From an uncultured Paracoccaceae bacterium (lineage in GTDB: Bacteria > Pseudomonadota > Alphaproteobacteria > Rhodobacterales > Rhodobacteraceae), in contig CAJXSR010000009.1 of the NCBI GenBank assembly GCA_913061275.1, positions 1 to 64,000 of the forward strand: DNA of 64,000 nucleotides, read 5' to 3'. The notes under the pieces were generated by a model. That model was given only the letters and a program-made list of their open reading frames with translations, made no database searches and was not told where the DNA came from. Shown here one piece after another: positions 1 to 5,862 of this stretch; position 1 is the stretch's first letter, and the number at the start of each line of letters is the position of its first letter. A program made the position numbers and the translations under genes.

Positions 1-42
1 TTCTGCCTGTCTCGTGGGCTCGGAGATGTGTATAAGAGACAG
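1..42 (+). other. Illumina Nextera i7 adapter remnant (synthetic)
   Basis: Bases 1-8 equal the Nextera N703 index as written in the adapter oligo, bases 9-23 are the constant read-2 primer part, and bases 24-42 are the 19-base Tn5 mosaic end (AGATGTGTATAAGAGACAG). The match covers all 42 bases without a mismatch to the adapter as I remember it. Genomic sequence therefore starts at base 43. This is untrimmed library sequence at a contig end, not a natural transposon end. Confidence 0.97.
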
Positions 43-749
43 ATTATATATTGGATGATATGTTTTAGCGTCTCGGTTTATTCGGAGTTCTTCACTGTTA
101 AGATATTCTTCAGTCTCTGTCTCAGTAAGGTGTTCTCTTCCAATAATTCGCCCCCAGACTGGGTCATGAACATTTCCTTCTTGGGCTAAAGAAGTGACCA
201 CGTCTCCAAGTGTTACTCGAGATATTCCTGTAGAAAACGCCCGGATTTTTGAGATTGGAATATTTGTTGCTATGCACCGTTTCCTAGCTTGAGGAGTGCC
301 AAACTCAGAAAAATCAAAGATTGCTATATTCGGCTTCAAATGCCTGTATTTGTAAAGAACATGTTCCTCATCAAGGAACCCTTGCTGAATAACTTTAGCA
401 ACACGGGGTACATTTTCCATAGCCCAGAATTTTGGCTTTAAATACGATACAATCTCAAAATACTTAACAAGGTCGACTAAACCATCTTCTACGTCGCCAC
501 TACCTCCTCGATTTGAATATGAAAATTGAGTGCATGGTGGACTACCAACAACAACATCAATATTCTTTGGCAAATCAGATAGCTCTAACTCTCTAATGTT
601 TGTAATTTCTAATTCAGTATCATGATTGCCATTATGCGTATCAACAGCAGGTTGCCACCATTCGTATGATGCAACAACATCTAGGCCGGCAAGACGTAAG
701 CCCAAGCTCCACCCACCGATACCTGCATATAGATCAATTGCTCGCATGT
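43..749 (-). CDS. DNA (cytosine-5) methyltransferase, 3'-truncated at contig end
   Basis: Transfers a methyl group from S-adenosylmethionine to cytosine C5 in a specific DNA site. Translating the minus strand from ATG at 749 gives about 235 open codons that run into the adapter. The family motifs appear in order: motif I DLYAGIGGWSLGL near residue 5, motif IV GSPPCTQFS with the catalytic Cys near residue 75, motif VI MENV near residue 118, and motif VIII FGTPQARKRC near residue 160. The target-recognition region and motifs IX-X would lie beyond the contig end. It stands 104 bp upstream-to-downstream from the recombinase gene on the same strand. No restriction partner is visible, so it may be solitary or part of a restriction-modification pair whose other gene is off the contig. 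The family call is secure; the recognition site is unknown. Confidence 0.9.
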
Positions 750-853
750 TCACTTTCAAATCACTTAAGAGTAGTTATATATAATTTATTGAGAGCCGAC
801 AAGATCCAACTTAAGTAATTCCGTCAACGAGCCTCTTAACTTTCATAAATTAA

Positions 854-1450
854 TCAAATTAGATCGACAACTTTCATTCTCGCCTCACTATCACCCTCTA
901 TGTACCGCTGTGTCGTTTGCAGTGATGTGTGTCCAGCCAAGAATTGAACATCTCTTAATGACCCACCGACGGTCGATATCTTCTTTGCAGCATTCGTTAT
1001 AAACGTTCTACGACCACTGTGTGAAGAACACCCAATTAACCCAAGATCAGAATACCATCTTTGAAACATATTAACGATTGCTTGAGCTGACGTGGCATCG
1101 GTTCTTTCCGTTCTAACAATCCTCGAACTTATATCGTGCCTATAATAGGATTTTTCATGAATGTATAATTCGGACAATTTGGATTTAAGCTGCTTGTTTA
1201 TAGGTATGATACGACCTGATTTACCTTTTGATGCAATATTCGTCAGGTTAATAAAATCACCCAACTCCCCATTTGCATCTGTAACCATTGGCCACGTAAT
1301 ATTAGCAATCTCTTTTGCCCTTAACCCTGCTCTAGCTGACATTAAGAAAATAACTTGGTTACGAATTCCGTTTCGTTTAGCTCCAAGATAGGTGTTTATC
1401 ATTTCAATTTGATTGCGATTTAATGTTTTAGCTTGCTTCTCAAGACCCAT
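854..1450 (-). CDS. Tyrosine recombinase / phage-type integrase, catalytic domain only
   Basis: Site-specific recombinase that cuts and rejoins DNA through a phosphotyrosine. The 198-residue product is essentially the C-terminal catalytic domain. Arg44 sits in SARAGLRAKEI, a Lys at 75 or 77 in the beta-hairpin, His144 and Arg147 in HSGRR, His174 in LAGH, and the nucleophile Tyr183 in TTQRYIEGD. All catalytic positions are present, so it could be active. The N-terminal SAM-like core-binding domain of ordinary integrases (usually 300-400 residues in total) is missing. Short core-only forms occur on some elements, so this need not be a truncation. It is the best candidate for mobilising the element in comM. 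Confidence 0.85.
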   Translation of the reverse strand: MGLEKQAKTLNRNQIEMINTYLGAKRNGIRNQVIFLMSARAGLRAKEIANITWPMVTDANGELGDFINLTNIASKGKSGRIIPINKQLKSKLSELYIHEKSYYRHDISSRIVRTERTDATSAQAIVNMFQRWYSDLGLIGCSSHSGRRTFITNAAKKISTVGGSLRDVQFLAGHTSLQTTQRYIEGDSEARMKVVDLI

Positions 1451-1868
1451 TTAACCCCCTGATATTAATGATAATATTATAGGATTTATTATATTATAAC
1501 CAGTTATGCCTGTACATATATAAGTTGGCCAATTATGTGTAATGAAATCAATAATTTATAGCATCTGATTATATATTTTATCATTTATAATCAGTTATTT
1601 ATGTCGTACTTCGTGTAGTAATCACATCAGTTTGTAAATAATTTCACCCTCATTTTTCCAATTATTAATGCTTGGTGTTTTACCCACCTTTAAAAAGCTC
1701 AGACGTATTGTTGCGCCTTGAGTTAATGACCGCTTTATCGGACATATCCACCCATCAGTTAAGTCTTGTACGGAGGCACGACATATGTATTTAATTATCT
1801 AATTTTATTAACTAGAAGTATCAAATTTTTATTAAACTATGCTAACTATAAGAAGATAAGGAACCTAC
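1451..1868. other. AT-rich intergenic region, island
   Basis: This 418-bp stretch lies between the divergent recombinase and Fic genes and should contain both promoters. It is very rich in A and T, with many chance TATAAT-like words, so no promoter can be singled out. No RNA gene, repeat array or convincing ORF is seen. AAGGA at about 1859-1863 is the ribosome site for the Fic gene. Confidence 0.5.
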
Positions 1869-3251
1869 ATGATTGAATTTGGAACGCCCTCTCGGATTAA
1901 ATTGCGCCAAGACACTGAACAGTTGCTGGAGCAAGTGGACATAGCCATAAAAGTGTTCAATAAACTACGGCCCTTAAATGATGATGTTAAAAATCGCATA
2001 AAGATGGCCTTTTTACCGGATCGAATTACATCCAGCTTAAATATGGAAGGCATAATTGCCACTCGCAGGCAAACTCTGGCCATAATGGACTCAATGACTA
2101 TTGCCGATTCATCTTCTAAGTCAGAGCAAGAGGTTATTAATGCTCTATCTGCAGACGAACTTACACTAGACGCAGCAGAAGACGGGCAAAAATTGAATGC
2201 CACATTATTGCGGCAAATTCACTTTTTAATTGAAGATAAAATTGGCGAGACCCCAGGGAGTTATCGGGAAAGAGATATCAAAATCTCTCAAGCTTTATTT
2301 ACCCCTCCATCTCACACCAGCGTACCCAGTTTGATAGATGAAATGCTCGCTGTTTTTATAAATGATGATACAGCACATCCAATCGTTCGTGCTGCATGGA
2401 TACACAACCGCTTCACTCACATTCACCCCTTTTTAGATGGCAATGGTAGAACCGCTCGTTTGCTGCAAGATTTCACACTACTTTCTGGGAAGTTATTTCC
2501 AACAGGGGTTCCATCAGCATTACGTGATGACTACTATGACGCTCTCGCAGCCGCAGATAAGGACGATTGGGATGACTTGGTTGCAATTATAGCTAATAGC
2601 CAACTTAGCATTATTTCGAAGGCCAGTGGCATTGCAAATGAGCGGGAAGAGCGTTCAATCTGGGTGCAAAGGTTGGCGAGAAAAGCTGATCACAAAAAAC
2701 GAGGAGCACAGCACAAGCAATATTTAGTTTGGGCACACAAAATGAACGAAATTCAATCCGCATTTGAGGCGACTGCACAAGAAATTAATGAAGCATCCGA
2801 CGTGTTATCGGTTAAACATCAATCCTATCCTGTTGTTGACTTCAAGGTGTGGAAACAACTTTGTGATGGTGAGTGGATTCGCGATGGCTGGTTCATAAGT
2901 CAAACACTCTCAATAGATGGAGAAAGGGCTTATGCTTTTGTCTTTTATTTCAGGAAGCACGTAACATTTCCGACGGACCCATTTGTTGAAACGGAACCTT
3001 TGATAGGCCTGAAGTTTACGGGTGGAAAACCAAATGAAAAATATGTCTTCGGATTATTTCAAGATGCTGACATTCGTCTCCGTGAGCTACTTTTTCATGC
3101 TGATGAACTATTTAGTTACTATTTCAAAGGGAAGATGCGAAAAGGTCGCCGTGAAGAAATAGAAGAATGGGAGGCAGAAACTAACTTAACTACAAATCAG
3201 GTTATCGAAGATTTATATGCTGATTTATTTGAGAATAAGAATGGCGTCTAG
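1869..3251 (+). CDS. Fic-domain protein (AMPylase family) with N-terminal inhibitory motif
   Basis: Fic enzymes usually move AMP from ATP onto a hydroxyl side chain of a target protein. The signature HPFLDGNGRTAR is complete at residues 186-197: catalytic His186, phosphate-binding GNGR, final Arg197. An inhibitory-helix motif of the form S-x-x-x-E-G is seen at residues 56-61 (Ser56, Glu60, Gly61), ahead of the Fic core. That marks a class II, self-inhibited Fic protein that needs no separate antitoxin. At 460 residues it has a long C-terminal part, which I cannot assign in detail; winged-helix domains are common there in this family. No partner toxin or antitoxin gene adjoins it. The start is the ATG at 1869 preceded by AAGGA. 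The target is unknown. Confidence 0.88.
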   Translation: MIEFGTPSRIKLRQDTEQLLEQVDIAIKVFNKLRPLNDDVKNRIKMAFLPDRITSSLNMEGIIATRRQTLAIMDSMTIADSSSKSEQEVINALSADELTLDAAEDGQKLNATLLRQIHFLIEDKIGETPGSYRERDIKISQALFTPPSHTSVPSLIDEMLAVFINDDTAHPIVRAAWIHNRFTHIHPFLDGNGRTARLLQDFTLLSGKLFPTGVPSALRDDYYDALAAADKDDWDDLVAIIANSQLSIISKASGIANEREERSIWVQRLARKADHKKRGAQHKQYLVWAHKMNEIQSAFEATAQEINEASDVLSVKHQSYPVVDFKVWKQLCDGEWIRDGWFISQTLSIDGERAYAFVFYFRKHVTFPTDPFVETEPLIGLKFTGGKPNEKYVFGLFQDADIRLRELLFHADELFSYYFKGKMRKGRREEIEEWEAETNLTTNQVIEDLYADLFENKNGV

Positions 3252-3565
3252 TGGGCTGGCCACAATTTTAATACATTGCAGATGAGTTATTCTTTATATG
3301 ATCACTAATCAGTAGGTTCAGTTGTGTAGTCATTAAGATGTTATTTACTTGGCATATTTGTTCAAAGTCATATTTTAGAGTTTTTGGTAATCTGAAATTC
3401 ATCAATGCCGTATTGGGTCTCATATTGGTAATACCTTTTTAGTTATTAGATTAATGTATTGAATTGTTAAAATACCTTTTAGGTACAACTAAAATTAAAG
3501 AACAACTCGGTCATACTTTTTTAGTTAATTGCAACAAATGAATAAGATTTGTAAGGAGGCTTAGC
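3252..3565. other. AT-rich intergenic region between convergent genes
   Basis: This 314-bp gap separates the 3' ends of the Fic gene and the HUH-like gene. The word AATACCTTTT occurs twice, near 3430 and 3471, which is the only repetition I see. No gene, RNA or clear terminator with a T-run is visible. Confidence 0.45.
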
Positions 3566-4027
3566 TCAGCGAACGCAATGCATATTATCCCAATCCACTT
3601 CGTCTAGTGGGCCGAGTTTTGTAATGTAATTGATCCAACCAAAATTCGCATTGTATTGGATATCTGTCTTGGAATAACCCCAACGGGTTTCACCCCAACA
3701 TAATTTGATTAGATTAGTAAATTTAGCTGTATCGTCAGGATATGGATTTCTAATTGCTAAATGTGTGTGCAATCGATCCTGATGTGAGTACTCGAGTACA
3801 GGAATAACATCTAATTTTTTATCAAACCTCTTGAAAGTGTTTTTATATACTTTCCTATTCAGGTGGTTTAAAAAGTGCCTATTGTTTGTCGAAGCCTCAA
3901 TTAGATCGAGATTTTGAGGGTAGATAAATTGCTTCATTGTTAATGTGACAGCCACCATATCCGTTAAATCAGTGTTTACAAGAAAGGCTCTTGTTTCTTT
4001 CCGTATTTCATTTCTGTTTTGATACAT
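3566..4027 (-). CDS. Small HUH-like (Rep/relaxase-type) protein
   Basis: A 153-residue protein whose layout resembles small replication-initiator-like proteins found on proteobacterial prophages and plasmids. A segment ending in KKLDVIPVLEYS is followed by RLHTHLAI with His87 and His89 as an H-x-H pair. A later segment WINYITKLG has Tyr134 and Lys137 spaced as in HUH single-strand nucleases, where His residues hold the metal and Tyr attacks DNA. The middle residue of the H-x-H is Thr rather than the usual hydrophobic residue. The ATG at 4027 has only a weak GGA upstream. Its place next to a recombinase and a DNA methylase suits a mobile element. The family call is an inference from motifs only. 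Confidence 0.55.
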   Translation of the reverse strand: MYQNRNEIRKETRAFLVNTDLTDMVAVTLTMKQFIYPQNLDLIEASTNNRHFLNHLNRKVYKNTFKRFDKKLDVIPVLEYSHQDRLHTHLAIRNPYPDDTAKFTNLIKLCWGETRWGYSKTDIQYNANFGWINYITKLGPLDEVDWDNMHCVR

Positions 4028-4161
4028 AAAATTCCAATCGTATATATGAGTTATTTATACAAACTAAGTTTTGAAAATGAATTTTTAGCGATTATTTGTT
4101 AATAAAATCGCAACTAATTGCCATTATTATAGGCTCCAGAATAATAAATTGGAGCCATTCT

Positions 4162-4338
4162 ATGAAACGCATTTCAATCGAACTTGGTTTAAATCTGACA
4201 CATGACAAAGAGCTCGTTAAGCTACAATATGACAAGCTACAGTCGGTTAAACTAAAAGAGCATTGCAACTGTGTTGATATGTTTTTGGATTTTCAACATG
4301 GTCAGTCTTATTTGGTGATCGTGTTGGAAAGCCCATGA
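4162..4338 (+). CDS. Hypothetical small protein
   Basis: A 58-codon frame begins at ATG 4162, eight bases after a GGAG ribosome site, which is why I prefer this start over an upstream one at 4096. The product begins MKRISIELGL and is Lys/Leu rich, with CNC and a short hydrophobic tail. I recognise no domain and see no signal peptide. It belongs to the AT-rich element and ends about 110 bp before the comM junction. It may be a small element gene or chance coding. Confidence 0.4.
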   Translation: MKRISIELGLNLTHDKELVKLQYDKLQSVKLKEHCNCVDMFLDFQHGQSYLVIVLESP

Positions 4339-4401
4339 AATTGTCAAGAAATACCCTTGTTATAATATACATTAAATAACGTATTTTTGCAAGCTTATTT
4401 T

Positions 4402-5862
4402 ATGGTAACAGCATGTAATTATTACTATTTAATAATATATACTATTAATATCGTAGGCTTGCCAGACAAAGCCGTGTCGGAAGCCCGCGAAAGGGTGCGT
4501 GCCGCATTAACTTCAATGGCTTTGGCTCTGCCATCAAAGCGCATCACGGTAAACCTATCGCCTGCTGATTTACCCAAAGAAGGCTCACATTTCGACCTGC
4601 CAATCGCCCTTTCCCTACTCGCCGCGATGGAAGTTATTCCCAATGATGAGGTCGCCCGCCAAGTGGCCTTGGGCGAGCTGTCACTGGACGGCAAGCTGAT
4701 CCCCGTGATCGGCGCATTACCTGCAGCATTAGCAGCGGCTGAGGCATCTTGCGACCTGATATGCCCAAAAGAATGCGGGGCCGAGGCCGCTTGGGTGGGA
4801 TCAGTGAACGTCATAGCACACGCAAACCTGTTGCAAGTGATGAACCATTTCAACGGTAAGCTGGTATTGAAATCCGCCGAACCGGGTGAAGTTCTAAAAA
4901 GCACCGAAGAACGCGATTTGGCTGATGTAAAAGGCCAAGAACGCGCAAAACGTGCAATGGAAATTGCCGCCGCTGGGCGACATCATCTGTTTATGGTCGG
5001 CTCGCCCGGTTCGGGAAAATCTATGATGGCATCACGCATGCCCAGTATTTTACCTGTGTTAGGCGCAGAAGAAGCCTTGGAAACTTCGATGATCCATTCC
5101 CTAGCAGGGTTACTAACCGAGGGTGGAATATCAAAGGTACGGCCCTTTCGTGATCCGCATCATACCGCCTCTATGGCGGCCATCGTCGGGGGCGGACGCG
5201 GTGCGAAACCGGGGGAAATATCACTGGCCCATAACGGGGTTTTGTTTCTGGATGAATTGCCTGAATTTTCCCGCCAAGTATTAGAAACCCTGCGTCAACC
5301 TGTTGAAAACGGCACCGTCATGATCTCACGGGCGAATGCACATGTAAAATATCCCTGCAAATTCATGCTTGTCAGTGCCGCCAACCCGTGTCGGTGCGGT
5401 TATCTGGCAGATGCAACACGCGCATGCGCACGCGTTCCCTTATGCGGGCAAGATTATTTGGGGCGCATATCAGGGCCATTGATGGATCGCTTCGATCTGC
5501 GGGTAGAAGTGCCACCTGTCTCAATGCAGGACTTGACACAGCCAGATACGGCGCATCGTGAAAGTAGTGCCGATATTGCCGAACGGGTAATGTCAGCACG
5601 CCTTACGCAGGCCGAACGTTACCGTGATATTGCTGATGTGGCCCTAAATACGGATGCCGAAGGTAAAGTATTGGAAACAGTTGCAACCCCTGACACAGAA
5701 GGGGCAGAAATGTTAGCAAAAGCTGCAGACAGATTTAAACTGACCGCACGGGGTTATCACCGGGTTTTGCGCGTGGCCCGCACCATTGCTGATTTAGATG
5801 CGCAGGAATGCGTTCGCAAACCCCATATTGCCGAGGCATTAAGTTACCGTTTAGCTTTTTAA
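4402..5862 (+). CDS. comM: ComM/YifB-family Mg-chelatase-like AAA ATPase, 5'-truncated
   Basis: ComM is a cytosolic hexameric helicase that drives branch migration during natural transformation. From IVGLPDKAVSEARERVRAA at 4450 to the C terminus the protein matches the family closely. It has the Lon-like N-terminal part, Walker A GSPGSGKS, Walker B VLFLDELPEF, a Cys-rich segment NPCRCGY and the C-terminal helicase-lid region. The usual first ~33 residues are replaced by an unrelated Tyr/Ile-rich stretch from AT-rich DNA. The frame stays open upstream to an ATG at 4402 and a TTG at 4387, neither with a ribosome site. I read this as comM cut by an inserted element. It is probably a non-functional remnant, although a hybrid start could still give a protein. 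The 3' end overlaps the convergent esterase gene by 12 bp. Confidence 0.85.
   Translation: MVTACNYYYLIIYTINIVGLPDKAVSEARERVRAALTSMALALPSKRITVNLSPADLPKEGSHFDLPIALSLLAAMEVIPNDEVARQVALGELSLDGKLIPVIGALPAALAAAEASCDLICPKECGAEAAWVGSVNVIAHANLLQVMNHFNGKLVLKSAEPGEVLKSTEERDLADVKGQERAKRAMEIAAAGRHHLFMVGSPGSGKSMMASRMPSILPVLGAEEALETSMIHSLAGLLTEGGISKVRPFRDPHHTASMAAIVGGGRGAKPGEISLAHNGVLFLDELPEFSRQVLETLRQPVENGTVMISRANAHVKYPCKFMLVSAANPCRCGYLADATRACARVPLCGQDYLGRISGPLMDRFDLRVEVPPVSMQDLTQPDTAHRESSADIAERVMSARLTQAERYRDIADVALNTDAEGKVLETVATPDTEGAEMLAKAADRFKLTARGYHRVLRVARTIADLDAQECVRKPHIAEALSYRLAF

Follow-up and report, generated by a model that had tools for sequence, protein, structure and literature searches.

The window analysed here (64,000 bases) is the first part of contig C9 (116,879 bases) in the 56-contig genome of an uncultured Paracoccaceae bacterium (GenBank assembly GCA_913061275.1, contig CAJXSR010000009.1). 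It starts with about half of a mobile element that interrupts comM (yifB); the remaining part lies on contig C6. Both ends of the element are seen, together with a 2-bp AA core in comM codon 32, mirrored ends and a comM frame that is cut after codon 31 (codon numbering follows the relative L005); relatives have the site empty. Very likely this is a complete integrative element of ~8.66 kb that owes its place in comM to a large serine recombinase (LSR) of its own, encoded beside the comM start on C6. The features are listed below; positions are those of the window unless C6 is named.

1-42, no strand: adapter remnant of the sequencing library, non-genomic, recognised from its sequence; C6 starts with an identical adapter
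43-759, minus: C5-cytosine DNA methylase, N-terminal part (PF00145, E 1.5e-30)
C6 46-969, plus: rest of the C5 methylase (PF00145, E 7.6e-11; 548-residue open frame overall)
854-1450, minus: solo (catalytic-domain-only) tyrosine recombinase, 198 aa (PF00589, E 2.3e-17; phrog_216, E 1.6e-32)
1869-3251, plus: Fic-domain protein, 460 aa, motif HPFLDGNGRTAR, cargo (PF02661, E 2.9e-19; SoFic model PDLC03963, E 6.5e-36)
3268-3423, minus: small RelB/DinJ- or Arc-like (ribbon-helix-helix, RHH) protein, 51 aa (TIGR02384, E 5.2e-5, under its cut-off; phrog_582, E 8.9e-4)
3566-4027, minus: HUH-motif Rep-like protein, 153 aa, with H87-x-H89, Y134 and K137 (REP_ORF2-G2P, PF23343, E 2.9e-7)
4096-4338, plus: 80-aa open frame without Pfam, NCBIfam or PADLOC match
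4425-4446, plus: half-site of the phage-type attachment site attP (P arm) at the right end, matching the left P' arm at 16/22 positions
4447-4448, plus: AA crossover core; left copy at C6:4306-4307, so present at both ends
4447-5862, plus: comM/yifB 3' part, codon 32 to stop (TIGR00368, E 1.7e-153)
C6, minus, up to the core at 4306-4307: comM codons 1-31, from the search with the ComM N terminus

The adapter shared by both contig starts is one that we take to be Nextera/Tn5. After trimming, the genomic inserts start at C9:43 and C6:46, and the trimmed ends share an exact 9-bp overlap (ATATATAAT); 9 bases is also the stagger of a Tn5 cut. Given the adapter remnants, this overlap and a methylase frame that is continuous over 548 residues across the join, C6 and C9 form one locus, meeting at a single library-transposase cut, and the element is whole at ~8,655 bases. 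Other contig ends in this assembly may be joinable likewise (shared adapter plus 9-bp overlap, as at C9 1-42 and C6 1-45). The missing comM start was located by searching the own genome with the ComM N terminus: query residues 1-34 match C6 4299-4400 on the minus strand, within a 45-residue frame. Read in the orientation of comM, the first half of the locus holds comM codons 1-31, the LSR, a BglII-family restriction endonuclease (REase; reverse), a BstYI-like REase and the C5 methylase (reverse). The second half holds the solo tyrosine recombinase (reverse), Fic, the RHH-like protein (reverse), the HUH-motif protein (reverse), the 80-aa frame and comM from codon 32.

Read outward from the core, the two element ends agree at 16/22 positions (the best of 200 shuffles reaches 14), and mirrored arms around a 2-bp core are the typical, defining look of LSR attP sites. 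The joined flanks ...CCGGGGTTACCCGCTTTC-AA-TATCGTAGGCTTGCC... read LAPGLPAFNIVGLPDK, and the relative L005 reads LSPGLPAFNIVGLPDK at the corresponding site. The bacterial attachment site (attB) in comM would be CCGCTTTC-AA-TATCGTAGGC. In three genomes of the same genus (G006, G024, G001) the left and right flanks align to a continuous comM at 74-79% DNA identity, and the two alignments meet at the same base in all three. Since in relatives the flanks of both halves fall on a single continuous comM, the insertion is not due to chance.

These results bear out most of the initial annotation, which had proposed an accessory element inserted in comM, starting at position 43. That start is right, bases 1-42 being adapter. 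Its advice was to seek the missing comM start on a different contig, next to the far end of the element, and C6 has it there; the empty site to be sought in related genomes is found as well, their comM being intact and flanked by the same sequences. Profile matches confirm each of the recombinase, methylase, Fic and HUH-like genes that it had named next to comM. The AT-richness that it described is real, if modest: GC is 0.32-0.45 in windows over positions 1-4500, ~0.53 in comM and ~0.43-0.49 beyond. Its break at comM codon ~34 is right as to the interrupted gene, but the break lies in codon 32 (core AA at 4447-4448) and the right edge of the element is 4446. The LSR, both restriction enzymes and the precise target were beyond its view.

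The tyrosine recombinase visible in the window is not the recombinase next to the comM junction; this position is taken by the LSR on C6 (596 aa), which has resolvase, recombinase and zinc-ribbon domains (PF00239, E 9.3e-21; PF07508, E 2.4e-13; PF13408, E 1.7e-7). The LSR is the likely integrase, rather than the tyrosine recombinase. The BstYI-like REase (205 aa, C6 966-1583) is homologous to BstYI over its full length (PDB 1sdo, E 5e-70) and abuts the C5 methylase, which ends at C6 969; the two are a predicted type II restriction-modification pair. Compared with BstYI restriction-modification, a second, BglII-family enzyme (246 aa) is additionally present here. Both REases match PF09195, and a PDB sequence search with the 246-aa enzyme gave no informative match. 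Among aligned homologues of the HUH-motif protein, H87 and H89 are invariant in 10/10 rows and Y134 and K137 in the 9/9 rows reaching that far; a PDB sequence search with the protein gave no match. Judged by motif and profile, it could be a Rep or a relaxase. The cargo of the element is formed by the two REases, the C5 methylase and Fic, and the backbone by the LSR, the solo tyrosine recombinase, the HUH-motif protein and the RHH-like protein. Elsewhere in the own genome, two further LSRs and a phage-portal gene are seen (C8:109504-109785, C4:87405-87677 and C4:9353-10210).

Within the family, the LSR is matched at E <= 1e-20 in 7/394 genomes and the HUH gene at E <= 1e-6 in 9/394 (own genome counted in both). 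One of these genomes, G053 (locus L160), carries a comM element of ~8.7 kb with both comM parts present and largely the same host neighbours. It shares with the present element the LSR (41% identity, residues 5-415), the tyrosine recombinase (59%), the HUH-motif protein (43%) and the RHH-like protein (45%). It is inserted at comM codon 213 (Walker A region) with core TT, in the opposite orientation and with different cargo; the symmetry of its ends is 17/22, with 0/500 shuffles as high. In other Rhodobacteraceae (L150, L159, L161) the solo tyrosine recombinase and HUH pair is seen with this LSR family not nearby. On four viral-classed metagenomic contigs (L167-L170, 8-15 kb) the HUH gene adjoins a divergent serine recombinase (23%), accompanied by a C5-methylase-like gene in 3/4 and an RHH-like gene in 1/4. 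As a structural gene was not recognised on L167 in a gene-by-gene reading without profile search, this contig could represent an integrative element and not a virus.

The LSR was then followed over a much wider range. An alignment of four LSRs (three already seen in comM) was scanned against contigs of one genome per species (84,980 species), yielding 190 relatives; the best 80 of these 190 were kept and used in the counts. Under a strict rule (comM or comEC fragment <=250 bases from the LSR start, E < 0.01), 54/80 loci lie at comM or comEC, and under a lenient one 60/80. The strict loci divide over three targets: site A of comM (codon 32) with 10 cases (5' part adjoining the LSR in 6, 3' part in 4), site B of comM (codon 213) with 32 (15 and 17, respectively) and comEC with 12 (11 and 1). 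Six loci enter by the lenient rule only: L037 (4.4 kb between comM fragment and LSR start), L062 (E 0.11), L066 (E 0.064) and L042, L048 and L053 (comM on the far side). Hosts of the lenient 60 are Alphaproteobacteria (34), Betaproteobacteria (10), Gammaproteobacteria (10), Myxococcota, Planctomycetota and Verrucomicrobiota (1 each) and 3 that are less closely placed. Control LSRs (the best-scoring PF07508 match of 30 genomes among 190 searched, one per genome from a single class, with a flank of ~1.5 kb or less) gave no locus with comM or comEC (0/30). Relatives of the LSR occur in 13 plasmid and 17 phage records, all below 60% identity and none above 41% among the matches listed.

For the comEC type, upstream frames of 10 of the 12 loci were compared with Pfam: nine match PF13567, presumably the N-terminal domain of ComEC, and L116 matches PF03772. 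In three of the nine, PF03772 is matched as well, over its first 28 or 29 positions and just under the cut-off. Of ten other upstream frames, seven match other families and three match nothing. On one contig an identical comEC-type LSR is present twice (L075/L076), both times with the same element end, but only one copy is at a comEC fragment. Comparably, one Bosea genome has two closely related LSRs (L105/L112), one in comM and the other with a different upstream region; the latter matches the upstream region of L103, whose upstream frame carries an SPFH domain. In G038, an insert of ~26.6 kb with mirrored ends interrupts comM at site B (L030 6350, L031 12980); this genome has no PF07508 match at E <= 1e-10.

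In a quickly built tree of 84 LSRs (without L023, a duplicate of L054, and the fragments L026 and L063), 23/80 inner branches stay open and no direction of change can be read. The fewest changes on it are 8 for site A versus B, 7 for site-B orientation, 3 for comM versus comEC and 23 for all target labels. The comEC insertions fall in two well supported and well separated groups (L073-L079 and L083-L095), plus L116. L044 and L047 are each other's nearest (support 81) and both use site B, in opposite orientations.

Cores were determined for this element and 13 sisters with both junctions, and in a second pass for 12 of those 13 plus G053. The core lies at codon 213 in 10/11 site-B cases (CT in 8, TT in 2), the remaining case being L093, where core finding failed (symmetry 4/22). 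All three site-A cases have it in codon 32 (AA, AC, AC), and the sole comEC element with both ends has core GT. Symmetry is above every shuffle for this element, L061, L067, L072, L092, L083 and G053; it is equalled in 3-11 of 500 shuffles for L110, L094, L108, L049 and L107, and cores are weak for L080 (18/500) and L088 (39/500). Since both orientation classes at site B mostly have CT on the comM strand, a flip requires only the reverse-complement core in attP; control of orientation by the central dinucleotide is reported for Bxb1 (a title cited in PMC10083194).

The 13 sisters measure 5.2-10.4 kb and have a G+C content below that of their flanks in 13/13 cases. Of their 75 frames, 61 were scanned after leaving out the 13 LSRs and one LSR-overlapping frame. 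A small serine resolvase is present in 11/13 sisters (11/61 proteins match PF00239, one per element by mutual similarity). Among the PADLOC matches listed (the first 25 of 107 families) are methylases, type IIG enzymes, four mad2 proteins and proteins resembling ShosTA. The comM elements L092, L093, L107 and L108 share a protein of ~510 aa, of which the L107 and L108 copies are without Pfam match.

A mechanism can be proposed along these lines. The LSR would have recombined a circular attP with the attB of comM, and excision would require a directionality factor. For the HUH-motif protein a probable role is to nick DNA, so that the circle, once excised, can replicate by the rolling-circle mode or be mobilised. 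The solo tyrosine recombinase probably resolves multimers; in 11/13 sisters a small serine resolvase is present. Restriction-modification, and perhaps Fic, would be selfish or defensive cargo. Breakage of comM probably shields the element from removal: as ComM helps the recombination of imported DNA and ComEC, ComF and ComM serve the entry of gene transfer agent (GTA) DNA in Rhodobacter (passages of PMC6473078 and PMC10883770), a comM break would lower curing by homologous recombination. The own comEC and dprA frames of this genome are open. Extending this to the whole clade, we give about even credence to the idea that these LSRs are specialised on the DNA-uptake machinery and not on one DNA site. 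They would have switched repeatedly between comM codons 32 and 213, between both orientations and, more than once, between comM and comEC, since breaking transformation or GTA reception averts being recombined out; the Rhodobacteraceae element would in addition have gained a backbone of tyrosine recombinase, HUH-motif and RHH-like proteins together with restriction cargo.

Several observations weigh against the proposed mechanism of the element: 20/80 related LSR loci are without assignment to comM or comEC; neither a directionality factor nor, in Pfam scans of the window and C6 parts, secretion genes were recognised in the element; and the HUH fold is without confirmation, the AlphaFold model having a mean pLDDT of 53 and no Foldseek/PDB match at E <= 0.001. 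Furthermore, a frame of 486 residues, opened by an ATG at 4402 within the element, runs on into comM, which may leave partial ComM function. We nonetheless consider it quite improbable that comM stays functional through translation of its 3' part from a start codon within the element. ATG 4402 and TTG 4387 are both in frame with comM, but 31 native residues are gone and the upstream extensions differ among the six site-A elements, one of which has no start codon at all. Rescue by a conserved new start was rejected, as no start codon upstream of the comM 3' part is conserved across these six. The possibility that target choice follows DNA sequence alone, comM breakage bringing no benefit, deserves more weight, and we hold it as a tentative second explanation; an LSR reading the similar right attB arm of the two comM sites would then land at either of them. 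Between site A here (TATCGTAGGCTTGCC) and a typical site B (for example L094, GATGGTCGGCCCGCC), 10/15 positions of the right arm are alike, counted by eye; conserved coding motifs provide stable attB sites; and the unassigned loci point the same way. Yet just 2 of the 11 copies of the shared 14-base word ATNGTNGGCNNGCC in this genome are in comM, so by itself the word does not mark out this gene. The two-ended comEC junction has a different core (GT), with a similar word shifted by 3 nt, the comEC insertions stand in well separated LSR groups, and the control LSRs have no such bias. The likeness of the right arms may ease switching between the two sites. Overall, selection for breaking DNA uptake is somewhat more likely than sequence alone, though it is not demonstrated.

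Two further explanations concern the element itself. It might be argued that it is a composite, with a tyrosine recombinase-HUH element lying inside, or joined to, an island of LSR and restriction genes; in stretches fetched from G006, G089 and G051, the pair of tyrosine recombinase and HUH genes is indeed found apart from this LSR family. However, the same genes accompany the LSR in the other comM element, that of G053, and in L071 the tyrosine recombinase lies directly behind the LSR, which makes a composite unlikely in our view. An assembly or contamination artefact is suggested by the adapter sequence at the ends of both contigs, but was rejected as extremely improbable: the contigs measure 117 and 130 kb, the comM flanks match the locus of relatives, and the 9-bp overlap is exact with the methylase frame continuing through it.

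A modest number of cases underlies the idea that mobile elements break competence genes to avert their removal by recombination. Here, natural replicates come from a single recombinase clade (the same gene at two sites and in both orientations, and a second uptake gene in separate branches), which makes selection versus sequence chance directly testable. As comM and comEC serve the reception of GTA DNA in Alphaproteobacteria, the logic of self-protection could extend to GTA-mediated curing. In practical terms, predicted attP/attB pairs with defined cores become available for a group of LSRs.

Roles of ComM and ComEC in DNA uptake are described in passages of PMC10883770, PMC6473078 and PMC11472951, and prophage and transformation in pneumococcus are treated in part of PMC12637031. 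Insertions in comM, comFA, comYC and comK have been interpreted as self-protection from removal by transformation (Croucher et al. 2016, passages of PMC4774983); these competence-gene prophages and islands likewise include comM, but use other integrases in other hosts, and comEC is not among the disrupted genes in those passages. A prophage was rejected for the present element, with no convincing capsid, terminase or tail gene (PHROGs and Pfam for the window part, Pfam only for the C6 part) and one tail-protein match at E 0.14. In Acinetobacter, comM is broken by varied defence-bearing elements (part of PMC11472951). AbaR/Tn6022 and Tsy likewise break comM, and comM-interrupting elements often bear defence or resistance cargo (passages of PMC10293859 and PMC11472951). 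According to the passages of PMC10293859, Tn6022 and Tsy target the Walker B region. They do so with Tn7-like or TnsF/YRec machinery, whereas no such genes were recognised in the present element, which sits in codon 32. A Tn7-like (Tn6022/AbaR) origin was rejected, as Tns/Tni genes were not recognised among the scanned frames and the insertion codon is not at Walker B. The same holds for a Tsy element, given a single solo tyrosine recombinase with no second one recognised, and the different codon. In G028 (L029 7359-10728), comM is split within codons 304-339 by ~1.75 kb, close to the Walker B region (codon ~297) targeted by Tn6022/Tsy.

Breakage of comEC as such is also in print: in Piscirickettsia salmonis the gene is interrupted by various transposable elements (abstract part of PMC12955456), likewise mobile elements, but an LSR is not mentioned in that part. 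Among the closest matches is the survey of Durrant et al. 2022 (passages of PMC10083194), in which 12.4% of predicted site-specific LSRs target a 'magnesium chelatase/ATP-dependent protease' gene and LSR targets are enriched in DNA competence genes. Those elements likewise have an LSR and, as far as the annotation tells, the same target gene family. The initial annotation knew of no well-described Rhodobacterales element with this gene set. This stands among the literature matches listed (supplements not covered), where no paper on this element or on switching within a clade was recognised; as a class, however, LSR elements in comM are published. Insertion codons, comEC and changes of site or orientation are absent from the Durrant passages, and the cargo and the tyrosine recombinase-HUH-RHH backbone are described here. 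LSR insertion in comM and the enrichment of competence genes are thus already published, and what is newer is a single clade switching between sites, orientations and genes.

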